Source: Vigna angularis
Lineage: Eukaryota; Streptophyta; Magnoliopsida; Fabales; Fabaceae
DNA: 64,000 nucleotides
Direction: 5' to 3'
Assembly: GCF_016808095.1 (NCBI RefSeq)
Contig: NC_068975.1
Span: 6,377,501 to 6,441,500 of the forward strand
Under the pieces are notes generated by a model. That model saw nothing but the letters and a program-made list of their open reading frames with translations. It was not told the DNA's origin and did no database searches. The position numbers and the translations under genes are program-made. Positions 2,050-64,000 of the stretch are shown here, one piece after another (positions within the stretch are counted from its first letter, which is position 1; every line of letters begins with the position of its first letter).

Positions 2050-2177
2050 GGTGATTCTTTTCCGAAAAATAAAATTTTTGGGATTGGGGAGTGAGAAATC
2101 CTATCATGCATAAATGTGTATTCCTTGTTTGTTTGTGAAATTGATCTAGTTATTATGATGCGTGTAAATAGAGCATC

Positions 2178-3341
2178 ATGTCTAGGAGAACTGAAAATGG
2201 CAACTCTCAAAATGTGACTGAGAGAATAGAAGGAGTTGTTGGTGCTATCGAGAGGGTGGTAGACATTCTGCACCACAATGCTACAACTGGACCAAGAGAA
2301 CAAATTAGTCTGACTCATTTTATGCGTCATAATCCTTCCAAGTTTAATGGGAGCGCAACACTTGACGAAGCAGAATACTGGGTCCAAGAAATCGAGAAAA
2401 TCTTCGAGGCTATATCTTGCCCAGAAGACAAGAAAGTGATATTTGCAACCTTTTTACTGATTGGAGAGGCAGAATCTTGGTGGAGTGGATTTAAGCGACT
2501 TATGGAGTCCAACAGGGAAGTTATCACCTGGGAGAATTTCAAAGACAAATTTCTAGAGAAATACTTTCCCAGTCACGCAAAGTTCACAAAGGAGCTTGAA
2601 TTCCTGAGTCTACACCAAGGAAGAATGTCTGTACACGAGTACGTGGTGAAGTTTGACCAACTTTCAAGGTATTACTCGCAGACCCTCTCAGATGAATGGA
2701 AGTGTCAGAAGTTCGAAGAAGGTTTGCGCCACGAGCTAAAGAGAGCAGTGATACCGTTGAATATCAGACATTTCTTGACTATGGTCGAAACAGCTAAGAG
2801 GGTGGAAAAGCTAGAGATAGATCCAGAGAGGGTTGTCAGACCTCAGAAAGGAAGCTCGTCCGTGACTAAATTTCAAAAGTAGCCTTATAATCGACCTCAG
2901 AGGCCACAACAAGGATCAATGAAGTGTTTTAACTGTGGAGGGGCACATTTTAAGCGCAACTGCCCTCAATTGAGAGACACACAATCTTTTATTAGATGCT
3001 TCATTTGCAATGAGCAGGGACATTATGCCAACATGTGTCCCAACAAGAAGACAATGGATGGACCCAAGCCACAAAATTCAGCAGGAGCAAAACCTCAAGC
3101 TGCAGGGAGAGTATTTGCTATGTCTGGGGAGGAGGCTACTCAATCAGGTAACCTGTTCCTAGACACCTGTTTAATACATGGAAAATGTGTACATGTGTTG
3201 TTTGATTCAGGAGCTACACACTCCTTTGTGTCCTTGTCTTGTTTAGAAAGACTTAGTTTGCCAGTAAGTGATCTAGGATGTAAGTTACTAGTTTCGACAC
3301 CAACATCTGGGCAGATTACAACCAATTCAGTTTGTGTGTGA
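2178..3341 (+). pseudogene. gag: Chromovirus gag and start of protease, broken by stops
   Basis: The frame opens at ATG 2178 and encodes a retrotransposon Gag core (for example WWSGFKRLME and EKYFPSH) to a TAG at 2880-2882. The same frame continues to two zinc knuckles near 2920-3040: a CX2CX3HX4C form (CFNCGGAHFKRNC) and CX2CX4HX4C (CFICNEQGHYANMC). The aspartic protease motif LFDSGATHSF follows near 3200. A second in-frame stop, TGA at 3339-3341, cuts the protease. Gag packages the element RNA and protease matures the polyprotein. Both stops are compatible with C-to-T changes. Everything to 5219 is in one frame, so gag and pol were originally a single reading frame. Confidence 0.92.
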
Positions 3342-5219
3342 TGTCCGATCGTAGTATCTGGGCGCAAGTTCAAAGTGAACTTGATTTCCTTACCTCTTCA
3401 AGGGCTGGACGTTATCCTAGGAATGGATTGGTTGACCACCAATCACATTCTTCTCGATTGTGCAAGACAACAATTAGTATTCTCAGACTCTAACGATTTA
3501 GAGTTGATCTCAGCTAAAGAAGTTCTGAAGGAGGTCACTAGAGGAGTTGCGTGTTTTGTAGTAATGGCTCAAGAGAAGAGGATAAATTCTGAAGATCCGG
3601 TAATGAGTATTCCAGTGGTAGAAGAATTTGCGGATGTCTTTCCAGATGAAGTGCCAGGATTACCACCGAGCAGAGAGGTAGAGTTCTCCATAGATCTGGT
3701 ACCAGGAGCTGGACCGATATCTATAGCTCCGTATAGGATGGCTCCGGCAGAGTTGGCTGAACTAAAGAAGAAAATTGAAGAGTTGTTGGAAAAGAAGTTC
3801 ATTAGACCAAGTGTGTCGCCATGGGGAGCACCAGCATTATTGGTGAAGAAGAAAGATGGGAGTTCAAGATTATGCATCGATTACCGACAGTTAAATAAAC
3901 TGACTATTAAGAACAAGTACCCACTACCGAGAATTGAAGACTTGTTGGATCAATTGCATGGCGCTAGCGTGTTTTCAAAAATCGATTTGAGGTCTGGGTA
4001 CCATCAGATCTTGGTCAAACCCGAAGACTGTCATAAGACAACTTTCAGGTCACGTTACGGACACTATGAGTATGTGGTGATGCCGTTTGGAGTGACCAAT
4101 GCTCCTGCCATATTCATGGACTATATGAATCGAATTTTCCGACCTTGGTTAGATAAGTTTGTTGTTGTGTTCATAGATGACATTCTCATCTATTCTAAGG
4201 ATCGAGAGGAACATGTAGAGCATTTGAGGACAGTGTTGGATACGCTCAGGAAGCATCAATTGTTTGGAAAATTTTCCAAGTGCGAGTTTTGGTTGGAGGA
4301 AGTACAATTTCTGGGTCATGTAATTTCTGCTCAAGGAATCTCAGTGGATCCCGCAAAGGTGGAAGCGGTGTTGAAGTGGGAACGCCCGAAGTCAGTATCG
4401 GAAGTAAGAAGTTTCGTGGGCCTGGCTGGATACTACAGGAAGTTCGTCAAGGATTTCTCAAAAATTGTAGGTCCATTAACACAGTTGACTCGGAAAGATC
4501 AACCGTTTTCTTGGACGTGCAAGTGTGAAGCAAGTTTTGAGGAAATGAAGAGAAGACTGACAAGTGCTCCAGTGCTAATGATCCCAGATACTTCAAAGGC
4601 TTTTGAAGTATTTTGTGACGCTTCATATCAAGGACTTGGTTGTGTGTTGATGCAGGAGAAAAGACCAGTGGCATATGCGTCGAGACAATTGAAGGTGCAT
4701 GAAAGAAACTACCCGACACATGACCTTGAGTTAGCGGCTGTCGTTTTCGCTTTAAAGACTTGGAGACATTATCTGTATGGGTCACGTTTTCAAGTCTTTA
4801 GTGATCACAAAAGCCTGAAGTATCTCTTTGATCAGAAGGAATTAAACATGAGACAGAGAAGATGGATGGAGTACATGAAAGATTTTGAATTTGCGTTGCA
4901 ATACCATCCGGGAAAAGCAAATGTTGTTGCAGATGCTCTAAGTAGAAAGCATATGCAAATGTCGACAATAATGGTGAAGGAGCTGGAAATGATCGAGAAG
5001 TTCAGAGATATGAATTTGGGTGTACAGTTGGGCCAAAATCACATCTGGTGTAGCCATTTGGAAATCACAAATAACTTCTTGGAAAGTATACGAACTAAGC
5101 AGAAAGAAGACACAAGTTTACAACAAATAGTGAGGTCATTGGGGACAGAACAAGCAAAGGACTTCAATTTGGGAACTGATGGTGTTCTTCGATCAGAAGT
5201 AGGGTATGTGTTCCTGTAA
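3342..5219 (+). pseudogene. pol: Chromovirus pol: protease end, reverse transcriptase, RNase H
   Basis: The same frame as gag continues after the TGA at 3339. The protease end shows ILGMDWL near 3418. Reverse transcriptase follows, with [12 protein letters not shown] near 3975 and the catalytic [10 protein letters not shown] near 4170. RNase H starts at [10 protein letters not shown] near 4610 and closes at [10 protein letters not shown] near 4920. Together these copy the element RNA to DNA. The 614 codons from 3375 to 5216 are uninterrupted, so reverse transcriptase and RNase H are intact as sequence. The frame then shifts near 5190, just before integrase, and ends at TAA 5217-5219. Confidence 0.95.
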
Positions 5220-6502
5220 ATTCAAGGTTGATAAGACAAATTCTTGAGGAAGGACACAAGAGTCGTCTTAGCATACATCCTGGTATGACTAAGATGTACA
5301 AGGATCTAAAGGATTCTTTCTGGTGGACTGGAATGAAAAAGGATGTGGCAGACTTCGTTTCTGCTTGCCTAACTTGTCAGAAGGCAAAGACAGAACATCA
5401 AAGACCGGGTGGAATGTTGCAGCAGTTGGATATTCCCCAATGGAAATGGGACAGCATCTCGATGGATTTTGTAACCCATTTACCAAAATCATCGAAGGGT
5501 CATGATTCCATTTGGGTAATAATTGATTGACTGACGAAGAGCGCTCACTTTTTGCCAATAAACCTAAGGATGTCAATGGAGAAGTTGGCGGAGTTATACA
5601 TTCGAGAAATAGTGAGATTGCATGGTGTGCCCAAAAGCATTGTCTCAGATCGAGATCCAAGGTTTACCTCAAGGTTCTGGCAGTTATTGTAGGAGGCATT
5701 AGGTTCAACGTTGAGAATGAGCTCAGCCTATCACCCTCAAACAGATGGACAGACTGAGAGGACTATTCAGTCATTAGAAGACTTACTGAGAGCATGCGTA
5801 TTGGATCATCTGGGAGGTTGGAGTGATATCCTACCGTTGGTGGAATTTACATACAACAATAGTTATCACTCTAGCATCGGGATGGCGCCATATGAAGCTT
5901 TATATGGGAGAAGATGTAGAACACCGTTATGTTGGTTCCAAGATGGGGAATCACTAATAGTAGGACCAGAGTTATTGCAACAAACAACAGAAAAGATAAA
6001 ATTGATCCAAGATCGAATGAGAGCAAGTCAAAGTAGACAAAAGTCATATGCTGACAAAAGGAGAAGGCCGTTGGAATTTGAGGAAGGAGATCATGTATTC
6101 TTACGAGTAACACCAACTGCAGGAGTCGGGAGAACTATCAAGATGAGGAAATTGACACCTAAATTTCTTGGACCATATCAAATTCTCAAAAAGATTGGAC
6201 CAGTAGCTTATAAGGTAGCACTACCGCCTCAATTGTCAAATATACATAATGTTTTTCATGTATCCCAACTGAGGAAGTATATTCCAGATCCAAAACATGT
6301 GTTGGAAGTTGACGAAATTCAGGTTAAAGAGAATTTAACGACGGAGGTTCGACCAATACGAATAATGGATGTTCAAATGAAAAGGCTAAGAGGAAAGGAC
6401 ATTCGCACGATAAAGGTGCTATGGAATGAAGATACACAGGAAATGACTTGGGAATTAGAGGAATTAATGAGAAAAGAATGTAAGACCCATAAAAATAAAT
6501 AA
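5220..6502 (+). pseudogene. pol: Chromovirus integrase with chromodomain-like tail, broken
   Basis: Downstream of the frameshift near 5190 the reading frame holds the integrase HHCC zinc region (with CLTCQKAK near 5370), the DDE core (MDFVTHLP near 5463, VSDRDPRF near 5645, HPQTDGQTE near 5732) and the conserved NVFHVSQLRKYIPDP near 6250. The end resembles the chromodomain-like tail of Tekay-type elements (KRLRGKDIRTIKVLW near 6385). Two in-frame stops interrupt it: TGA at 5528-5530 and TAG at 5690-5692. The frame runs straight into the 3' LTR, which starts at 6479, with no long spacer or clear polypurine tract, so a short stretch before the LTR may have been lost. Confidence 0.93.
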
Positions 6503-8974
6503 ATAAATATATATATATATATATATATATAGTAGTAAATTTTAGCATTTTATTAGTAATAATAATTTTAGTGGATAGAAAAATGTAAATTTTGGATATA
6601 AAATTATAGTAATTTTAGAAGGAGAGGTTCAAATTTTTGGTAATTTATTTAGTATTTTTTTAATTGAATAATAAAAAGTGAATAATAAATAGTAAAAGTG
6701 AATAGTGAATAGTAAAAATAAATTCTTATCATGAAAGAAATTAGGATTCCTTAGCATGTAAGAAATTAGGATCAAAATTAATAAGTAAATGATTAAAATA
6801 TTTTTTTAAATAATATTAAAATAATAAATAATATTAAAATATTAATGAATAGTAAACTTTTTTACCTATAAATAGCCATAGGAGGGAATGGTATTTTGCA
6901 CCAAGAAAAGAGGAATCAAGTGAGAGCTTGAGAAATAGAGAAGAAAGAGTTAGGGAGAAATTTTTAGTTGCAAGAAGAGTAGAGGTTCTGAAGGGTTTCG
7001 GGGGAAACAAATTCGGAGCAGGAGATTAAGTCTGGAATAGAGGTAGGGGAGCTAATCCTTCTTGTATATGATTTTTATCTATGTTACGATAATGAATATG
7101 AGTTATGAGTATGTTAAAATTTTGGTAATGATAGTTATTTATTCACTTATATAAATTTAGTTTTCATGATTATAATTTTCTTATTTTCGAGTTAGTATGG
7201 TAAAACTTTTCTTTTAATTATTTTGACCGTTGGATTTAACTAAAATTTTAATATATGAATCCTAAGACCTATTTCTTCACTTTGACCGTTTGGATTTGTA
7301 ATTAGAAGTCTGTACTTAGAGAAATAAATCCTGCATGTTTGAGTAAATTAATTACCCCTGTAGATCTGTTACTTAGTCATCTCGGTAAAATATATATTAT
7401 GACTCATTTGACCGATAGATCAACTTGAAAATTTTATATATGATTCCTAAGATATATTAATACACTTTGACCGATCGGATTTTTAATTGAAAGTCTATGG
7501 TTGGAGAAAATAATTTTTAAGTTTTGAAAAATCTGATGAACACTATATTTCTGTTCTTAAGTTATCATGGTAAAAATTTCATATATATTTTATTTACCGC
7601 TAGATTGAGCCCAAACTTTAGTATGTAATTCATAAGACATATTAAGTCATTTTGACCGTTCAGATTTGTAATTAAATGTCTGTGCTTAGGGAAATTAGTT
7701 CCACATTTTGAGTATAACCAAAAACCACTTAAAATTCTGCACCTGAGTTACCTCGGTAAAACCTCAATATCTGTCTAGTTAACTGTTGGATCAACCTGAA
7801 ATTTTAATATGTAGTTCATAACAAATAGTGAATTATTATGACCATTCAGATTTGAAATCGGAGTTACAGATTTATAGATATTAATTTCGTATCTTCTCAA
7901 GGATCTCAATATTGCTTAATTTCTATTTTTTTTATATCTATATTAAATTTCGGTGTTAATATTATATGCTATTATTTTAAATCTGTAAATAAGAAATTTG
8001 TTAAAAACTAGTTGAGCAACGCTTTGGCTAAGGAAATATTTGGTACTTAAGTTGTCCATTGAGACGCACCTCTCTTTCCTGGAAGTTTACTCGACAAGTT
8101 TTTAACTTAAATCCTATTGAACAGATTATGTACTGTTAAATTATTGTGTAATATATCTTGTTGGAATATATTCAGTTTGTATGATTTCTGAAATAATTGG
8201 ATTTTATTAGATTTGAATTTATGCATCTGAACATGATTGTGAATTATAATGATGTGATTTATGTGGAGAGTATGTGAATGTATGCGATATAGTCAATTTG
8301 TATGACTTTTGGGATGGATGGACGTGATGCATATTGGTGTATGCATTCTGATTTGGTGTTTGATGCATATTGGTGTATGCATTCTGATATGTTGTTGATG
8401 CATATTGGTGTATGCATTCTGATTTGGTGTTTGATGCATATTGGTGTATGCATGATGCATATTGGTGTATGCATGATGCATATTGGTGTATGCATTCTGA
8501 TTTGATGTTTGATATATATTGATGCATGCAATGTGGTTTAGTGTGTAACTCATATTTGTCTATGTAATTTGATCTGGTATAGTGAGCATAGTATGGTTTG
8601 GTATCGAAGTATGTTTATTGTATTGAATTGTTAGCTCACCCTACTTGTTTGTGTATGCATGTGAATGCGATGATCGTATAATGCGTGATGTTATACAGGA
8701 GCAGATGTTATTACAGATGCGATGGCTGACGCTTTTGAACATGCATAAAGGTCAAAAGAGAGATGGGATAAAGGACTTGGGATTGTGATTTTAGTGTTTT
8801 AAAAATTTATTTCGATCCTGACTATGTGGACATTTTATTTTCGGAAGAATCGATTGTAATAAATAATGTACTATTTTCTGTCTATGTTGAAGTTTAAAAT
8901 TTCAAAATTTCTACATTTATTTTTTTACGGAAAAATTTAGTCGATGTAGCGCCAAAAAAACTCGGGGTGTTACA
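6479..8974 (+). repeat. 3' LTR of the chromovirus (2,496 bp)
   Basis: It starts TGTAAGACCC and ends GGGTGTTACA, a TG...CA pair with matching TGTAA/TTACA termini. A (TA)n tract lies at 6508-6531. The first 463 bp have no counterpart in the window because the left LTR is cut. The sub-repeats seen in the left LTR recur here. Confidence 0.95.
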
Positions 8975-15832: not shown

Positions 15833-17852
15833 TTATTCTTTTTCAATTCTAATGAGACTTTCCTTATAAACAACTAATTGGGAAAAACGACCTTGTACGT
15901 TGACACCAAGCTTTTGCAATACATGGGTACTTAAATCAAACCAGGCAAGATCACCATCATCTGTTTGGAAGAGTACATCACTCATATTTCCTATTCCAAT
16001 AGGAAATCTAATGTATGGTATGGGTCCAAAAACAAGGAGTTTAGTCCATGTTTCCTTCTTACCAACTTCAATCAGAATTGATACGTAAAAGGTTGTTGTT
16101 TGTGCATAATTTGATATCAAAGCAATTGATCCATTTAAGAGAAATAATTCTCTGTTCACCAAATACATTTCAAAATTATCATATGCATCCATGGGTATGT
16201 CTAAAGGTGGGGGGGTCATCATCCACACATTATTGATCAAGTCAAATGATACTAAGTGTTCAATAAATTGGTCTTGATAACCCCACCAATGACACATTCC
16301 CTCCAAGTAAAATTTATTATTAACCTCAGTACACACAGGTATACCTCCACCAAATTGAAGGTTTGTCCAAGAGTTACTTCTTAGGCTATACATCTCCCAC
16401 ACACATCCCGCGGTGAAACGATCATGTGCTAACTTATCATCATCATCATCATCATCGGTAACAGCAAGAAATGTTAGTTTCCTAATCACCTTATAGTCAT
16501 TTCTAACACAATCATAGCCAAATCCATGATACAAAATGACAACATCAATATAATCTGGTACATAATCAAATGGACTAGGAGGAATGACCATGAATTCATT
16601 GATAGTTGGGTTCCACAAATATGCATGTTGTCGTCTATATTGTGCTTGTAGGCAAAAAATTCCATGAATACTTGAAGAACCTAAAATATACAATTGCCCA
16701 ATGATATCTGGAAATTGACTTGGCCAAGGTAATTTTTCCATATTTTGAAACCTCTCACCAGAAGATAAAAATAACGACGATTTGCTAAGATTCTGATGAA
16801 CTTGAGTGAGATTCAAAAAGATACATTCATCTCCATAGTATGAGTGATAATTGCGTATGAAGTTATTACGAAAGAGGTTCATAAAATGAGAATTTTCAAA
16901 CAAGAGCGTCCATGATCTTCGTACACATCCAAATCTCTTGAGAGATTTCAAAGGTAGTTTAGAAAGAATAGAGGGTACAAGATCATCAAGTACGTGATTC
17001 ATATGCCTTTGAGCTAAAAAATTATTGTCTCTCTCTTGGTTTTGGAACCAAATGTTAATAAGTTGCCAATAATCTTTGTTGTTCTCATTCGATAGGTAAA
17101 TTTGGTGGGAAATGTGTTGGCAATTTTTAATAATGAGATTCCTTATGGTGGTCTCTTCCAAGTACTCCAACTGTTAAATAAAATGAGTAAACAAAAAAAA
17201 TAATAACAAAAACGTGAATGAGATAATTTGTGAACCTGGTTATCATAGAGGAAGAGGGTGATATTTGTTCCCCTTGAAGGTTGTTGGGCATTGATGTCCT
17301 TGGTAACAATGAAGGAGGCATCTGGTTGAGATTCCCAGATATATTGATCATGGTCATTGTGCTTAGAGGTGACAATAACCTTGTAGGCAACCAAATAAGC
17401 AGAGTAGAAGCCAACTCCCAAATTATATGCCAAATCTAAAATAAACACATACAAATTTTACAATTAATAAGTATGCAATAAAATTGCAAATGAATATGAA
17501 AAATAGGCACCATCCTACCTTCCTTTGTCAACCCAATACCAAAGTCGATGATGGAAAGTGTTTTGTTAGCCTTGTGGGGAACCAATCTTATCAACCGATC
17601 ATCTGAAATGATTTTGTGTGTATTTCCCTCAAATTGAACTTGATCTAAAGCCTGTGTATACATGCAATGATCGATAAGACTAATATAAAATAAATGTACA
17701 AATAAAAACCAAATCAAAGGATTACTTACATTCGAAGCATTATTGATAAGTTCACGAAGGAATACTTCTTTATTAGAATAAAAGGTCTTGTTCATTTGTC
17801 TTAATGCCAGACTCATCACATCCTTGAATACAAGCATCTCATCATTTGCCAT
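15833..17852 (-). CDS. HSP90 N-domain / F-box / F-box-associated domain fusion protein (4 exons)
   Basis: Four exons give 597 aa: 17852-17730, 17651-17519, 17435-17236, 17170-15833. All junctions are GT/AG (donors GTAAGT, GTAGGA, GTTCAC; acceptors ACACAG, TTTTAG, AACAG) and the phases 0, 1, 0 fit. Residues 1-182 match the HSP90 N-terminal ATP-binding domain: [18 protein letters not shown] (E34, N38), [12 protein letters not shown] (D77), [25 protein letters not shown]. The segment between DLAYNLG and GVGFYSA, about 35-40 residues holding the ATP lid, is missing. Residues 210-255 are an F-box ([26 protein letters not shown]), which in SCF ligases binds SKP1. Residues about 317-592 resemble the F-box-associated domain of legume F-box families ([20 protein letters not shown]), with a seven-Asp run at 391-397. 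HSP90 sequence continues without a break from exon 3 into exon 4, the F-box exon. Domain calls are sure; function and expression are inferred. Confidence 0.85.
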
Positions 17853-17920: not shown

Positions 17921-17926
17921 TTTATA
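17921..17926 (-). promoter_or_regulatory. Probable TATA box of the HSP90/F-box gene
   Basis: On the minus strand AAATATAAAAG lies about 70 bases before the ATG at 17852, a normal plant TATA spacing leaving a 5' leader of about 40 nt. A diverged copy of this stretch is at about 19300-19320. Confidence 0.55.
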
Positions 17927-17935
17927 TTTATTTAT

Positions 17936-20068
<2,133 letters not shown>

Positions 20069-43663: not shown

Positions 43664-44611
43664 TTACAAAACCAAATCAAAAGTTTTTAAATCCACTGGG
43701 TTGCCTCCCAGCAAGCGCTCTTTTAACGTCATTAGCTTGACCCAGTAAAGCTCAAGTTCCTTCTTCTTTTTCTTCTTTCTACTGAACTTCTTCAGAAATT
43801 TGATCAAACCAGGAACCTGTTGCAGTGTCTCAATCATAGGAACTTTAATCTCCAATTTCTTGAAGATTTCCATAAAGCACTTAAATTTCTTTTCCTTCCT
43901 ATGATTCTTCTTTAGATGAGGATGGGATTTTTCATATGATTCCTTCTTCTTTCCTCTCATCTTCTTTTTCTTATGCTTCCTCTCCCCAAATTTTCTCTTT
44001 TTCTTTTCTCTTATTTTTTTCTTCCCTTCTCTTTTTCTTCTCAACTTCTTTATTTTCACACAAATTTTCTTCCTCTCTTCTCTCTCAACCACTTCTTTTT
44101 CATCATCTTTATCTTTCTCACTCAACTCTTCTTTTTCTTCTCTCTCTATCTTTTCCTCATCTCTCTCTATTTTTTTCTCAGCAAAAATCTTGTCACTTTC
44201 AGTAACAATGGCTTGACCTTCCTCCTTAAGGTTAACTTCAGTATTAACCTTAACATTCAATTTTTGACTAATGAAACAAAGGTGCATCTCCATCCTTTTA
44301 CATGATTCTTCAATGCTTTTCTGAGTAAAGTCGGAATTTTTCAAAAATTGTTGAAGGGTGTCATCCAAATTTACTGATGGAGAGGGTTGTTGCTGCCATT
44401 GTTGTGGTGGCGGCCTATCAAATTCTTCGGTAGCTTGAGTGGTTTTGTGATGACAATCAGGTATCTGTATGTACTGTTGAACTGCCTCCTCCAATGTTAT
44501 CCTTCTTCCAGATAGAGAGGGTTTTTTCTGCCTTTGTTGTGGTGGTAGATTCTTAAATTGTTCGACAGCTTGCCAAAATTGATCATTATCCATGCTTGAG
44601 TGAGATCCCAC
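43664..44611 (-). CDS. Gag-derived 315-aa protein of the non-autonomous element
   Basis: An uninterrupted frame starting at ATG 44611. The N-terminal third is Gln/Pro-rich with coiled-coil-like stretches (LDDTLQQFLKNSDF, CKRMEMHLCFISQKL). The middle (about residues 140-235) is almost only Lys, Glu and Arg. The C-terminus has KCFMEIFKKLEIKVPMIETL then PGLIKFLKKF, which is the region after the Gag core in Athila/Tat elements. There is no Gag capsid core and no zinc knuckle, so packaging by this protein alone is unlikely. It remains open despite having no enzymes beside it. It may be a passive remnant or a product that helps the element use a partner's proteins; the sequence does not decide. Confidence 0.7.
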   Translation of the reverse strand: MGSHSSMDNDQFWQAVEQFKNLPPQQRQKKPSLSGRRITLEEAVQQYIQIPDCHHKTTQATEEFDRPPPQQWQQQPSPSVNLDDTLQQFLKNSDFTQKSIEESCKRMEMHLCFISQKLNVKVNTEVNLKEEGQAIVTESDKIFAEKKIERDEEKIEREEKEELSEKDKDDEKEVVEREERKKICVKIKKLRRKREGKKKIREKKKRKFGERKHKKKKMRGKKKESYEKSHPHLKKNHRKEKKFKCFMEIFKKLEIKVPMIETLQQVPGLIKFLKKFSRKKKKKKELELYWVKLMTLKERLLGGNPVDLKTFDLVL

Positions 44612-44764
44612 CAGTGATTGAAATTACCTTAGTAGAATTGAGTGCCTATTAAATTCTTGTTCGAATTGCATCCTGCAAACATTAGGCACAAAACTCTAGA
44701 AAATATTTGTTAGCACAAAAAAGATATAGGAGAAGATATAGATTCAGAATATAAAAGATTCAGA

Positions 44765-47548: not shown

Positions 47549-49709
47549 CGAGACATTAAAGACCGAGTGAAGATTGGATAGTTGAGGAGGTAGAGCTATC
47601 TCATAAGCTACTCACCCAATACGCCTCAGAATCTGATAAGGACCAATAAATTTTGGAGACAACTTCTTAGACCGAACAGTTCGTCCCACACCAGTAGTAG
47701 GATTTAATCTAAGGAACATGTGATCTCCAGCAGCAAACTCCAAAGGTCTTCTTCTCTTATCGACATACGACTTTTGCCTACTCTGAGATGCCTTTAATCT
47801 TTCTTGAATCAGTCTCACCTTCTCAGTTGTCTACTACACCAATTCTGGACCAGTCAACACAGATTCTCCATCTTTAAACCAACAAAGGGGAGTCCCACAC
47901 TTCCTTCCATAAAGTGCTTCAAAGGGAGCCATATCGATACTGGACTGAAAGTTATTATTGTAAGTAAATTCTACTAAGGATAACACTTCATCCTAGACTC
48001 CTATGTGATCCAAAGCGCAGGTTCTCAACATATCTTCTAATGTCTGGAACGTCCTTTCAGATTGGTCGTCTGTCTGAGGATGATAAACGGAACTCATATT
48101 TAACTTACTACCCAATTCACCTTGCAAATCATGATGCCTAACTATTCTGGGTAAATGGGTAACAAAGTCCATTGCTATGCTATCCCATTTCCAGTCAGGA
48201 ATATCTAATGGCTGAAGTAGACCGCACGATCTTTGATGTTTTGCTTTAGCTTTTTGACAAGTTAAACAAGAGGATATAACCCGAGCCACATCACTCTTCA
48301 TACTCGGCCTCCAAAACGACTTCTTGAAGTCTTGGTACATTTTAGTCATGCCTGGATGCATGCTAAAACGAATTTGGTGCCCTTCCTTAAGAATTATCCT
48401 CTTCAGCTCTCCAACGTGGGAACACACGTTCTTCCTCTGAACTGTAAGAGGTTGTCCGTCCCGGTATTGAAATCCTTGCTTTTTTCTGAACCGAGTAACT
48501 AAAAAATCTTTTGAAATTCCACATCAACTGACTGCTTCTGCTTGATTCGGTAAAATAAATCACTTGATAACTTGAGATTACAACACCTGATACCGCTCAA
48601 CTCCAACTCAAATCGTAATCTTAAGTCCCTAAAACTCTCAACCAAATTTAATTCTCGAACCATCATAGAAGAAATATGGACAGTCTTTCTGCTTAATGCA
48701 TCAGCCACAACATTAACTTTTTTGGATGATACAACAGTTCAAACTCATAGTCCTTCAAGAACTACATCCACCTTCTCTGCCTCATATTCAATTCCTTTTG
48801 ATCAAAGAGATATTTCAAACACTTGAAACCGAGCACCATATAAATAATGTCTTAAAATCTTCAAAGCAAACACCACCGCTGCCAATTCTAAGTCATGAGT
48901 TGGGTAATTCTTCTCATGAATCTTCAACTGTCGAGAAGCATAAGCAACCACTCTTCTATCTTGCATCAAAACACAACACAACCCATTATATGAGCATTAC
49001 AAAAGACTTCAAAAGATTTTCCCGTATTCGGAATTACTAACAAAGGAGCGTTCGTAAACCTTTGCTTCAGCTCTTGAAAACTAGCCTCACACCGATTGTT
49101 CCATGCAAACGGTTGGTCTTTCCTGATCAACTAAGTCAACGGTGCTACTATCTTGGAGAATCCTTCAATGAACCGTCTATAGTAGCCTGTTAAGCCCACA
49201 AAGCTCCTCATCTCAGTGACCGAATGGGGTCTTTCCCACTGAAGCACTGTCTGCACCTTTGTGGGATCCACATAAATACTGCTTGCTGAGATTACATGAC
49301 CCAAGAACTGCACTTCCTTCATCCAAAATTCACACTTAAACAGTTTTGGATAGAGTTTCTTCTCTCTCAACACACCGAGTACTGTTCTAAGGTGATTCTC
49401 ATGCTCCTTATGAGTTTTAGAATAAATAAGTATGTCGTCAATAAAAACAACAACAAATTTATCTATGAAGGGTCTGAAAATACGGTTCATGTAATGCATA
49501 AAAATACCTGGGGCATTAGTAACACCGAATGAAATTACTACATACTCATAATGACCATACCGAGACCAAAAAGTTGTCTTCTGCACATCCCCCTCTTTCA
49601 CTAACATCTGATGGTATCTTGACCTCAAGTCTATCTTGGAAAATATCCACGGCAGCTTGACATTATGATTCCATATTTCTTGGGAACCACATGTATAGGG
49701 CCCACCCAA
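47549..49709 (-). pseudogene. pol: Level-0 minus-strand gypsy pol: reverse transcriptase to integrase, decayed
   Basis: Read on the minus strand: reverse transcriptase from [13 protein letters not shown] near 49635 with [10 protein letters not shown] near 49430 (open 49709-49131); RNase H in broken frames to ADALSRK near 48705; integrase zinc region with CLTCQKAK near 48250; then HPQTDDQSE near 48080. Most of the integrase core between THLP and the HPQT motif is deleted, removing the middle catalytic Asp. The C-terminal part (KSYVDKRRRPLEF near 47770) runs to 47549, the edge of the nest, and resumes at 31758. It is a Tekay-like relative of the chromovirus at 1-8974 but much older. The N-terminal part stops at 49709. 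Confidence 0.92.
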
Positions 49710-49783
49710 GTGTTGTCATAGTATGAATATATAAGACATGTTTGTAGCAACTTGGTGTCCTTTGTCTTTACAACCCCCATCAA

Positions 49784-50189
49784 TTGAGGGTCGTCAAAGT
49801 GAACCTAATCTGTTTACCTCTTCAAGGTTTAGAGGTAATTTTAGGAATGGATTGGTTAGTTGTCAATCGCATTCTTATAGACTGTAGTAACAAGAAGTTA
49901 GTGTTTCCAGAAGAAGATCTTGAAGAATCATTGACGATCGGTGTGCTAAGGCAAGATATAATGGAAGGTGCCAGTTGTTTTCTGGTATTCTCTCATTTGG
50001 AAGTACTGTCAGAGGCAGATTTTGACCGATCGGTGCAAGATGATAAGAGTGTAAACCGTTCGGTCGTAAGTGAGTTCTTGGATGTTTTTCCAGATGAGGT
50101 GTTTGGATTACCTCCTCCTAGAGAAGTGGAGTTTTCAATTGATCTGGTGTCAGGAGCAAGACCAATATCAATAGCTCCTTATAGGATGT
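49784..50189 (+). pseudogene. pol: Plus-strand gypsy protease/RT-start fragment
   Basis: The frame encodes KVNLICLPLQGLEVILGMDW (protease end) through VSEFLDVFPDEV and [11 protein letters not shown], which is where reverse transcriptase begins. It lies head-to-head with the minus-strand pol, 75 bp away, and is cut at 50189 by the LTR remnant of the next element. Its reading is open apart from these cuts. It could be the inverted front part of the same element or a separate insertion. Confidence 0.85.
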
Positions 50190-50399
50190 CTCCAAATGTC
50201 CCAAATTGTATTTCCAAAATTTTTCCTACAATCAATGATGAAAATAATTAGCTTAAATAATTCAAATTTATTAAAATAATAATTTTTCGTCAAATTAAGC
50301 ACAATTAGCAAAAACGGAAAAATACCGGACATTTAAGCACAATTCCCTGATTAATTCTAGCATACTAAACTAGGTGAAGTGAAGAAAATATTGACTCAT
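50190..50399 (-). repeat. 3' LTR remnant of the gag-only element
   Basis: On the minus strand TGATGAGTCAATATTTTCTT starts at 50399 and parallels 21264-21470 (CTAGAATTAAT(T/C)AGGGAATT, GAAT(T/C)ATTTAAG). It ends abruptly near 50190, inside the LTR. Confidence 0.8.
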
Positions 50400-51946
50400 C
50401 AAAATAGACCACACTTAGTCTTTTGCACTCTTGAGCAAAATCAAGACGCAAAGCAAGGAATAGTTAAAAAGGACATCAGGGAAGTGACACAAACTCAGCA
50501 GACAGAAAACAAAGACTCACGAGGAAAGAAACCAAATTACACAATTCTCAAGGCAGCTAGACCAAGAAAGGTAGTAGATAATATCCAACACAAAATCAAA
50601 GAAAGTAGATACTCACAAAAATCAACCAAGCAATTCGAGACATGGCAAAATGATCAATCAGCTCAAGAGGTGAATCAAAAGTAACAAAACCTCACAGATG
50701 CACTATCAGTGTTTCTCTCAAGTGTCTAAGGTAAAGAATTTCAACTCAATGCACTCAAGAGAACAAGCAATAACAGACTTGGCAACCCTCTAATATCAAC
50801 ACTCAAAACATATGCATGTTCAAATCAAAAGGTCTTTTATGGGTGAAATGAGGTCAAGGACAAGGGAGGATAAATATGGATGAGAAGCTACAAACCAAAA
50901 AGAATACAGGAGCAATGGGGAACAAGTGAAAACACAATCAAATCACACCCAAAACCTCTAATTCAATCCTCTTCTTGACTCCATTATTCACATTTTTTTT
51001 CATTCATTTTTTTTTCTATTTTTTTTCATCCTGTCTCTTTTCTTTTCTCTATTTTCAAAACAAAACTGTAAAAGACAAGATACACATATATTTACAAAAA
51101 CAAAACAAGAAGAGGAACCAACTAGCCAACTCATAAGAATCCCTAAGGAGACCACACTTGTTCCCAAAACACTTCCAAAGCTCCAAAATTTCCTAAGGTT
51201 AAGGTAATCATGGTTTTTCACTTAGGGCTAATGTATGAGCTTCAAAACAAAGAAATGAGGAAAGTATAGGTTCGAAAAGGGTTTTCAAAGAATCAGAACA
51301 AGGTAAGCTTATTTGGCTAGAGAGGCTAAAAAACAAAACTACCTTTATCACTTCCAAACATGCATATCAATCAAGAATTATCAACAAGAGTCAAGCCAAG
51401 GAATATGCACAAGCAATCAAGAGACATATCACACACAAGAAAGAACATAAAGTGGCTCAAATCTCACACAGGGCATTTGTGTCACAATCAATTCAACCTC
51501 TCAAACATCATAATCATCTTCCAAAGCAGAGAAAAGCAAGGATTTCCAACCAATCAGAGTATCAACGAAGTGAAGGTCAAGTCTACAAACTAAATAAAGT
51601 TCAGAAAGCAAGAGAAACATGCAAAATTGTACATAAGACACGACAAAAATAACCTAGAAAAGAAAAAATTTAACCAAGAAAACAAAAACTAACGAAGAAA
51701 AATCAGAATCTCCCCCAATAGACCACACTTAAACTAAACATTGTCCTCAATGTGTCATAAGTATAAGATCATAAATCAGAACATTGAACAGATCATGGAC
51801 AAGTGTAATAAAAGTAGGGAAAGGGGGAGAAGGGAAAAAGAAACCTCCCCTGGTCATGGTGGCAGTTGCCAATTTTGGACTTGTAGGGAGATGTCTTCCA
51901 CCATTGGATCTAGCAAGGAAGTTGTGAGGAAGAATTGCTTCATCCT

Positions 51947-53509
51947 CTAGATTTGATCTAGCAGAGAGATATCTTCCACAGTTGGATCTAAGAAGGAAGG
52001 ATTGTTGATGAGCAAGTTCAGCCAATGCCTGATCTTCAAGTTGTTTTGTAGGCTCGCACCTTTGTCTTCAATTATGGGTGTTTGTTGATCAAATTCATGT
52101 GTACCTCCTACAACATGGTTAGTGCAATGTGGCTCCAAAGAAATGACATGTAGAGGTATAACACCCAATCCCAATTTATCAGACTGAACCTTAATTACAT
52201 CCTCAGAACATGAATCAATTTCAAAATTACAAGCAATATCAATAACAGACTCAGATTCATGTTCAGTGCATGGAGAATAAACATTGAGACGTGATATCAA
52301 AAAGTGATTCTCATCATGCACAGAGGGAGAATTAAAAACATGCTCAACAACAATATGATTATCAGTAACATACCTATCAACAACATAATCATTAACAACA
52401 TAATCATCATCAACATAATCAAATTGAGGTATGTTTTCCTCCACTTCCCTAAAGATTGGAAAAATGGTGGAACATGAAAATGGTCTACTTGGCTCAAAAG
52501 TACTGCTTATATCTGTTGTGTCCTCAAAATCTTCATCAGTCTCCTCAAATGCAAGAGCAGGGACGTAGGACGATGGGAAAGTAGGTGGCACAATGAGAAA
52601 ATGACTCTGGTCCCCATCTTCTATGTTGATGCCACTATCATCATCATCTGGAATCTAAACAGTCTGAAATGGTGATTCCTCTAAATCTTGAGACTGTTCC
52701 TGATTGAGTTGTGTGGCCATCTGCTCTATCTGTTCAGTCAAACTCCGAATGACCGCTTTTATTTCCTGCTCAAACTCCATGTTCTCTTGTTGAAAATGAA
52801 TGTTCTCTTGCTGAAACTGAAGGTTCTGCATGGTCATCTGCTCCAACAACTCCTGCAATGTACGCTCAGATGTAGAAGGCTGATGAGCTATTTCGGCAGG
52901 CTCATGAAGCTGCAGCTATTGTTGTTGTTGGACTGGCGGAAGCATATAAACATTCTAGAGTGGTGGTTCTTGATATTGATGTTGTGGAGTACTATGCCAT
53001 CCCAGGTTAGGATCATTCCATCCAGGATCGTTGTTGTAACCGTACTGTAGAGGGAAGAATTTTTTTAGAAACTGATGCTCAAGATCTTCCCAACTGGTGA
53101 CGGATCCTGGAGGTAGACAATAACACCAATCATTCGTTGCTCCTTGTAACGAGTGTGAAAATGCTCTTACGAAAATGTGATCATCTTGGACATCTAGAGG
53201 TTTCATTGCAGAGCAAATGAGATAGAACTTCTCTAAATGTTTATGTGGGCATTCACCTGCAAAACCATGAAACTCAGGCAGCAAATTTATCAGTCCAGTG
53301 TTGAAAACACAATGAACATCCTCCTCATCAAGTGGAACCGGCTCCCAAGGAGCACTCTCAGAAGTTGGGGAATGAGACATAGTGTTCTCAGCATAAAAAT
53401 CAGTAGAATAAACATGAGGACTATACTCAGAGTTAGATGCAGAAGGAGAATCATAATCAAAGGCACGGGCAGAATAAGCAGTATTCACAAAATCAAAATG
53501 GGTAGACAT
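51947..53509 (-). pseudogene. gag: Athila/Tat-like gag with long acidic extension, three stops
   Basis: ATG 53509 opens a Gag with the core LINLLPEFHGFAGECPHKHL, RAFSHSLQGATNDWCYCLP and LEHQFLKKFFP (to about 53060), the Athila-type retrotransposon Gag. In the same frame follow a Gln-rich coiled-coil stretch (repeats of QQEN near 52800) and an acidic Asp/Glu/Val-rich part to 51947. Stops interrupt it at about 52957, 52917 and 52655. After the core the usual zinc knuckle is missing. The single frame over about 1.5 kb shows that this arrangement once was one protein in a gag-only element. Confidence 0.78.
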
Positions 53510-53695
53510 GGAAAGAGAAAAAAAAGGAAGGTAGAAAAGAAATCTTAAAAAATTACAAAACAAACAAAACACAACACAATTAAAGATACGACACGCACAC
53601 GCAATAACACACAAAAAACAGAACATCACATCACAAGACAAGACAAAACACAACACACACTAACACAATAATAGACCTAAGACCGAACCGTTGGT

Positions 53696-62877: not shown

Positions 62878-64000
62878 GTGCCAATTGTTCCGACCATTAG
62901 TGACTGTAACACGCTTTCCATCAACAAACCACCTCTTTTTACTGGTGATAACTATGCCTTCTGGAAAGTCAGAATGAAAATTTTTATGGGGTCGGCTGAC
63001 AGAGGCATTTGGGAAGTTGTGCTAAATGGTCCCTATATTCCTAAAAGAACTGTTGAAGGTGTAGAAGTAGAAAAACCATACTTTAACTAGACTCCTGAGG
63101 AAAATAGAAGAGCCCAATTTGATATTAAGGCTCGTAATATTATTTCATCTGTTGTAGTACTTGATGAATTTAATAGAATTTTAGTGTGTAAGACAACACA
63201 TGAGATGTGGGAGGTCCTCAAAGTCACACATGAGGGTACAGACGACGTGAAACGTGCAAGGAAGAACACACTCATCCAGGAGTACGAGATTTCAAAATGC
63301 AACCAGGACAAACAATATATGATGTCCAGAAGCGTTTCACTCACATTGTGAACCACCTGACAGGTTTGGGTAAGACTTTTGACACTGATGAATTTAATGT
63401 CAAAATATTGAAATCATTAGACAGGTCTTGGCAACCAAAGGTGACTGCCATCTCGGAGTCTCAAAACCTCACTCAAATGTCAATGACGATTTTCTTTGGA
63501 AAACTTTGTGAGCATGAGCTTGAGCTGAGAACATTAACTGCAGAAGACGATCAAGGCAAAAGAAAGACGCTTGCCTTCAAGTCTGAAATCTCAAAAGGAA
63601 AAATTTCTAAGAGAATTGAGGACGATGATTCCGATGACGATGAAGAAAACATGAGTCTTATGATTAAGAAGTTTGCTAAATTCATGAAAGCAAAAGGAAA
63701 AGACAAATACCGCAGAGAAAGGAAAGATAATCAAGGATCTCCATCAAGCATTAAATGTTATGGATGTGGAGAAAGAGGACATGTGAAGACTAACTGTCCT
63801 AAGAATAAGAGAAATGAAGAAAAGAAAGAAAGAAAGTTTCCAAAGAAGAAGAAAGCTTACATATCTTGGGAAGAAAATGCTTCTAGTTCTTCAAGCTCAA
63901 GCGACTTAGATGAAGAAGCAAATTTGTGCTTAATGTCAGACTTAGAAGATGCAGGAAGCCAAGTAAGTGATTCTAGCTTAAAGTCAAGTAATGAATTTGA
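62878..64000 (+). pseudogene. gag: Copia (SIRE-like) gag, stop and frameshift, cut by window end
   Basis: No ATG is seen at the start; the match begins near 62878. NKPPLFTGDNYAFWKVRMK is the N-terminal copia Gag motif. A TAG at 63088-63090 replaces a Trp expected before TPEE. The frame shifts near 63296 and then stays open to the window end. The second frame has the UBN2-type Gag region (DVQKRFTHIVNHLTGLGK), an acidic run (DDDSDDDEEN near 63625), a CX2CX4HX4C zinc knuckle (CYGCGERGHVKTNC, about 63757-63800) and a Ser-rich stretch. Gag forms the particle that packages the element RNA. With a stop and a frameshift it is not functional as read. Confidence 0.88.

Follow-up and report, generated by a model that had tools for sequence, protein, structure and literature searches.

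A four-exon gene within a 64-kb stretch of Vigna angularis DNA (64,000 nucleotides, referred to here as the window) joins the N-terminal domain of HSP90 to an F-box region and a C-terminal propeller in one predicted protein. Our best reading, which we hold with middling confidence and which rests on sequence comparison, is that this protein serves as a substrate receptor for an SCF ligase and bears a putative nucleotide-binding module of single origin, derived from HSP90 and devoid of the lid. The HSP90–F-box pairing is kept in several species, suggesting a hitherto unstudied type of ubiquitin-ligase subunit. Should the protein be produced, the nucleotide-binding head of HSP90 would have been re-used outside the chaperone, within an E3 ligase subunit.

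The minus-strand gene model of the preliminary description proved sound: the four exons join in frame, with start phases of 0, 0, 1 and 0 for exons 1–4, all introns are GT/AG, and the resulting open reading frame of 597 residues contains no internal stop codon (Table 1). Exon 4 encodes, in order, the end of the HSP90 N-domain (residues 153 to ~190), the former F-box leader, the F-box region and the propeller. Met209 lies directly before the F-box and would permit an ordinary F-box protein to be made from exon 4 alone. A search of the 64-kb window with tblastn returned no second copy of the fusion, which is single copy there. An HSP90 retrocopy was considered and is unlikely, as the HSP90 part is split by three introns. 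A survey reports between two and four introns for the cytosolic HSP90 genes of legumes (PMC5066796), and the start of a partial record from Trifolium (P0205) coincides exactly with the start of exon 2.

Table 1 Positions of the exons, introns and possible promoter element of the fusion gene in the window
Feature	Position	Strand	Description
Exon 1	17730..17852	-	Residues 1-41; first part of HSP90 N-domain with strand 1/helix 1 and N-box (pocket residues E35, N39 kept); phmmer match
Exon 2	17519..17651	-	Residues 42 to ~86; HSP90 N-domain with DxGxG nucleotide motif (D81, G83, G85 kept)
Exon 3	17236..17435	-	Residues ~86-152; remainder of HSP90 N-domain; without ATP lid
Exon 4	15833..17170	-	Residues 153-597 and stop
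Intron 1	17652..17729	-	GT-AG, 78 nt, phase 0
Intron 2	17436..17518	-	GT-AG, 83 nt, phase 1
Intron 3	17171..17235	-	GT-AG, 65 nt, phase 0; T-rich tract precedes TTTAACAG
TATAAA, possible TATA box	17921..17926	-	74 bases 5' of ATG; consensus match only

Upstream of the fusion gene, three copies of GAAAATTC lie at 22-base spacing (18088-18139). The window contains no three-unit heat-shock element and no Rfam match at gathering scores. Elsewhere, a Ty3/gypsy-type retroelement on the plus strand (2172-6499) consists of pieces of gag, protease, reverse transcriptase/RNase H and the integrase C-terminus that follow one another in successive frames. It is flanked by two repeat-rich open frames on the minus strand (1281-1673 and 8222-8614), which have near-identical starts, lie ~6.9 kb apart and are possibly its long terminal repeats. 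A second retroelement, in pieces, occupies 47996-53659 on the minus strand (gag, reverse transcriptase, integrase zinc domain), and a Copia-type gag with a zinc knuckle is found at the window edge (63234-63998, plus strand). The minus strand also holds a 319-residue open frame (43667-44623) with no Pfam match at E 0.001.

Similarity of the N-terminal part to HSP90 is far above chance, with a best E value of 4.4e-50 against PDB sequences (phmmer) and identity to Glycine max HSP90 (P0202) at 109 of 182 aligned residues. The window protein contains the HSP90 N-terminal GHKL domain, with homology from residue 5 to ~190; HATPase_c was matched at E 0.0093, under the Pfam cut-off. The absence of the ATP lid (27 residues) splits the PDB matches in two, at residues 5-93 and 90-182, with NLG joined directly to VGFYSAYL. 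As originally described, the similarity continues across the exon 3/4 junction: phmmer matches extend to residues 182-185, and tblastn with HSP90 P0042 yielded a match at 17173-17030 (E 5.6e-4), that is, into exon 4. In six relatives (P0001, P0005, P0008, P0009, P0021 and P0022), Pfam PF00183 begins at residues 154-156, with a score under the cut-off in the four of them from Vigna/Phaseolus. Of the 518 positions of PF00183, the match extends to 31-32 in the four Vigna/Phaseolus proteins, to 39 in Cajanus, to 66 in Mucuna, to 73 in P0029 and as far as 105 in Spatholobus. Neither the HSP90 middle domain nor the C-terminal dimerization domain is present in the window protein, whose reading frame runs on into the F-box and propeller. 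For the V. mungo relative, the structure model predicts the HSP90 N-domain fold, and the structural matches listed for it are all to HSP90.

Exon 4 had also been described as encoding an F-box and an F-box-associated domain. Homology points to the F-box and a predicted fold to the propeller; a Pfam F-box match in the window copy was not obtained, either at E 1 with the whole protein or at E 0.1 with exon 4; the F-box there has VL in place of the usual LP. Among the relatives scanned, P0009 (V. mungo), P0021, P0022, P0029 and P0122 pass the Pfam F-box cut-off, and P0001, P0005 and P0008 score marginally under it. Two other proteins of the fusion clade, P0012 (cowpea-like) and P0015 (Vigna unguiculata), are also missing the F-box proline, with IT for IP. 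The structure model of exon 4 (pLDDT 77.7) matches kelch propellers, the best match being 5nkp_B (E 6.9e-9, TM 0.56 by target, rmsd 7.1); Pfam propeller matches in exon 4 are sub-threshold only. A C-terminal propeller of the substrate-binding type (FBA/kelch) is thus supported by the predicted fold. Named F-box relatives in the protein search include CPR1-like proteins.

The search for relatives proposed in the preliminary description returned HSP90 and F-box sequences within one predicted protein in Vigna, Phaseolus, Cajanus, Mucuna, Spatholobus and Glycine. Each protein search covered the best 120 of thousands of matches, and the range of the family rests on the matches listed. Among these, near full-length relatives are Vigna mungo P0001, P0002, P0009 and P0013 and Phaseolus vulgaris P0005-P0008 and P0010; the models of the V. 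unguiculata and V. angularis relatives are shorter or altered, and the same search gave Cajanus cajan P0022 and Mucuna pruriens P0021. Querying with the Cajanus protein added Spatholobus suberectus P0122, whose model stops inside the F-box, Glycine max P0141, which begins late in the N-domain and has a damaged F-box, P0123, which is a further copy from Mucuna, and P0134 of V. umbellata. A third protein search produced no additional fusion among its best 120 matches. The members from Cajanus, Mucuna and Spatholobus, together with P0029, pass the Pfam curated cut-offs for both HSP90 and F-box. Mis-joining of two genes, already discounted in the preliminary description, is ruled out, since other species carry both parts in one protein and the window has both in one exon, exon 4. 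The author of the preliminary description knew of no described protein of such make-up; none was found among the matches listed from the searchable, mostly non-subscription literature, as judged by title and the start of the abstract, and the word F-box is absent from the main text of the legume HSP90 survey (PMC5066796).

Several gene models of the family are ambiguous. Over exons 1-3, the closest sequences to the window are those of V. angularis (151 of 152 residues) and V. umbellata (150 of 152); at these near-identical loci, the models P0003 (V. angularis) and P0134 (V. umbellata) splice from exon 3 into mid-exon 4 and thereby lose the start of the F-box, perhaps through a local lesion or as a real isoform. 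P0029 (505 residues; longest contig, 2,319 bases; source 'lgn', presumably a read-archive assembly set) reads uninterrupted through the positions of introns 2 and 3, and may represent either a transcript from a plant resembling Cajanus or a copy without introns. The model of P0014 (Vigna unguiculata) contains two tandem sets of HSP90-tail, F-box and propeller pieces, from a duplicated gene or a mis-joined model. A number of F-box proteins with no HSP90 domain in their Pfam column carry the name 'molecular chaperone HtpG' (P0039, P0040, P0044, P0050, P0054 and other jgi rows). This label on plain F-box proteins was perhaps inherited from cowpea fusion proteins, and the fusion family may explain why F-box proteins are so called in public databases.

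Trees of both halves fit a single fusion event, as far as these sequences indicate. In the N-domain tree, where one Glycine soja row is present twice, 20 fusions are split from 22 HSP90 rows by a branch with support 100/98. Spatholobus is the first to branch among the fusions (94/84), and the fusions lie inside the plant cytosolic HSP90s, with HSP83-type rows, at weak support (50/75). The F-box/propeller tree comprises 67 chosen rows (17 fusions, window included, 5 partial and 45 F-box-only) and leaves out rows with a short or no F-box, such as P0122, P0141, P0134 and others. Here, a branch with support 96/95 sets 22 fusion or partial rows and 5 ORFs against 40 F-box-only rows, and the 5 ORFs on the fusion side start near the old F-box start. 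At the junction in Spatholobus and Glycine, the start of the HSP90 middle domain (IWLRKPEETT) is followed by '..GLQLQ(E/A)EME..' and then the F-box, and the N-terminus of the unfused F-box protein P0090 reads 'MNLLQFQAEMEK'. Judging from these junctions and the P0090 start, the HSP90 frame appears to have continued into the leader of a pre-existing F-box gene, running past the start codon of that gene. Two proteins, P. vulgaris P0008 and cowpea P0014, still have the old F-box start Met (QEM); R takes its place in the window, in V. mungo P0001 and in P. vulgaris P0005.

The ATP lid is nearly whole in Spatholobus, shortened in Cajanus (NLGRSSQLGVGF) and, differently, in Mucuna (NLGTKMKEGGADIGF), and absent in all Phaseolus/Vigna members covering the site. 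Because the lid end points differ between lineages, at least two separate losses are suggested, if the gene models are right. This erosion, from Spatholobus through Cajanus/Mucuna to Phaseolus/Vigna, amounts to a natural experiment on an HSP90 N-domain without its cycle. The strand 1/helix 1 segment (residues 9-24), the N-terminal dimerization segment, shows low retention over 17 fusions (0.29, P under 0.0001). According to PMC5018835, lidless yeast Hsp82 has no ATPase activity as a homodimer, yet stimulates a wild-type partner. Since the lidless homodimer is inactive and the middle domain is absent here, turnover by the known HSP90 ATP cycle is not expected of the fusion protein.

Retention was compared between 17 fusions and 24 HSP90s at 96 sites that are invariant among those HSP90s. 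We took as pocket sites three lists of 10, 12 and 18 positions; the 10-site list is the 12-site list minus D42 and Y127, which were dropped after the 12-site check of the window. The window protein keeps 10 of the 12 listed positions, the exceptions being D42 (N) and M86 (L), and retains the pocket residues E35, N39, D81, G83, G85, F126 and T173 (barley numbering). Over the fusions, the 10-site list is retained at 0.98 versus a background of 0.68 (P 0.001). With one row per lineage, P is 0.0014, or 0.0072 with the N-terminus excluded from the background; with the Phaseolus and Vigna rows only, these values are 0.0066 and 0.028, respectively. For the 12-site list, retention is 0.89 versus 0.68; P is 0.022 when deep sites serve as the background, 0.0087 when all sites do, and 0.10 for the strictest choice, deep sites beyond residue 24. 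The 18-site list gives 0.020, 0.0011 and 0.11 against the same backgrounds. Every row with a letter at the site has D81, G83 and G85 (24 of 24), F126 (25 of 25) and T173 (27 of 27), whereas E35 and N39 are present in 22 of 24 and are K in each of the two Mucuna copies. D42 is N in 20 of 24 fusion rows. The pocket core is thus retained and D42 is not, with an excess over other conserved sites that is only moderate and depends on the list.

Conservation of the HSP90 part was also compared with that of the rest of the protein. Among 13 sequences, identity is higher in the HSP90 part (residues 1-190; mean 0.72) than in the propeller (residues 256-597; mean 0.53) in 78 of 78 pairs, which are not independent of one another; the F-box is conserved about as well as the HSP90 part in the 13 pairs compared. 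Neutral drift of Glycine HSP90 to 109/182 identity introduced a mean of 4.1 stops, with none in 1.4% of 20,000 runs. The slower HSP90 part and the open frame point to constraint, with the caveat that database proteins are biased to open frames.

These data bear on the reading that the HSP90 exons form a decaying leader and only the F-box part works, from Met209 or from the old start, or that the window copy is on its way to a pseudogene. The absent lid, the substituted dimerization segment, the window F-box without LP, the alternative gene models in close relatives and the five fusion-clade ORFs that start near the old F-box start would all agree with such decay, as would the weakening of the pocket signal against the strictest background; the frame, however, is intact over three introns (P of no stop under drift, 0.014), and the V. 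mungo and P. vulgaris models are near full-length. A dead relic, an outcome the preliminary description had envisaged, is made unlikely by the stronger conservation of the HSP90 part relative to the propeller across all pairs, and less surely by the pocket sites. Overall, we assign decay a low probability. We consider it still more doubtful that the protein acts as a decoy, in which the lidless N-domain would titrate HSP90 co-chaperones or clients, damping HSP90 or NLR signaling, or send them to SCF. The N-domain fold is kept in the predicted model, and lidless yeast Hsp82 can stimulate a wild-type partner (PMC5018835); pairing with HSP90 is nonetheless unlikely because the C-terminal dimerization and middle domains are absent and the N-terminal segment is largely substituted. 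RAR1-contact sites also lean towards erosion: retention at 7 deeply invariant sites is low (0.45, P 0.049), and all 9 sites compared with all sites give 0.50 versus 0.64 (P 0.13). We regard the decoy as very improbable.

A further alternative is an adaptor whose HSP90 N-domain binds the SGT1 CS domain, tying the SCF receptor to the SGT1/HSP90 machinery; it, too, seems quite unlikely. According to PMC2935968 and PMC3896489, from which the SGT1- and RAR1-contact site lists were taken, SGT1-CS contacts strand 4-8, helix 87-93 and loop 141-148 of HSP90-N and recognizes the form with an open lid. The specific SGT1/HSP90 bridge put forward in the preliminary description is not supported at this level, as the seven SGT1-contact hubs are retained at 0.70 versus a background of 0.68 (P 0.46). 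Individual retention over 17 fusions is 1.0 for Y148, 0.88 for H142 and K88, 0.83 for E6 and 0.82 for T87. At F8, 11 of 16 rows have L, and H replaces the SGT1 hub D145 in 24 of 26 fusion rows with a letter; since Spatholobus, Cajanus and Mucuna are among the latter, D145 changed early. The window protein keeps five of the seven hubs, with F8 to L and D145 to H as the exceptions, and its Pfam scan revealed no SGT1 domain. With the surface partly kept, SGT1 might dock, but selection has had no special focus on the SGT1 sites. According to PMC6032283, CPR1 controls NLR receptor turnover and HSP90-SGT1-RAR1 control NLR folding. Because the named F-box relatives include CPR1-like proteins and both systems act on NLRs, a link of the fusion protein to immunity is a fair guess, no more.

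Based on these findings, we propose a plausible scheme for the SCF receptor with a lidless HSP90-derived module. A cytosolic HSP90 gene would have contributed its 5' part together with the introns, placed upstream of an At3g06240/CPR1-like F-box gene and reading into it in frame. This probably happened once, giving rise to a small F-box family seen so far only in Phaseoleae legumes among the matches listed. By analogy with other F-box/FBA receptors, the F-box would dock on SKP1 and the propeller would bind the substrate. The HSP90 part would be an extra, monomeric, lidless, putative nucleotide-binding module, providing a further contact that depends on a ligand or partner; the kept pocket core, lost lid and substituted dimerization segment together fit a monomeric nucleotide- or ligand-binding module on an SCF receptor. 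More speculatively, and in our estimate improbably, the protein might be a nucleotide-gated ubiquitin ligase receptor: ADP/ATP, or a small molecule related to them, would be sensed by the lidless pocket and would switch how the attached F-box/propeller binds its substrate or partner. With the lid lost at least two times in parallel, binding would proceed without a chaperone cycle. If so, the ligase might respond to HSP90 drugs such as geldanamycin and radicicol. The legume clade concerned includes common bean, cowpea, pigeonpea and soybean.

The fusion protein is reminiscent of three known systems. With the N-domain of plant cytosolic HSP90 it shares homology over residues 5 to ~190, the pocket core and, in the V. 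mungo relative, the predicted fold; unlike HSP90, it has no lid, middle domain or C-terminal domain, and its dimerization segment is largely substituted. Its F-box and propeller belong to the same family as those of the legume F-box/kelch (FBA) proteins of the At3g06240-like/CPR1-like type, which they adjoin in the trees, whereas none of the 45 F-box-only proteins compared matches HSP90. Finally, SGT1 is a co-chaperone that binds both SKP1 and HSP90 (PMC6032283 and PMC2935968), and the fusion protein would likewise occupy a place between SCF and HSP90, provided that the inferred contacts exist. SGT1, however, binds HSP90, whereas the fusion protein itself contains a piece of it.
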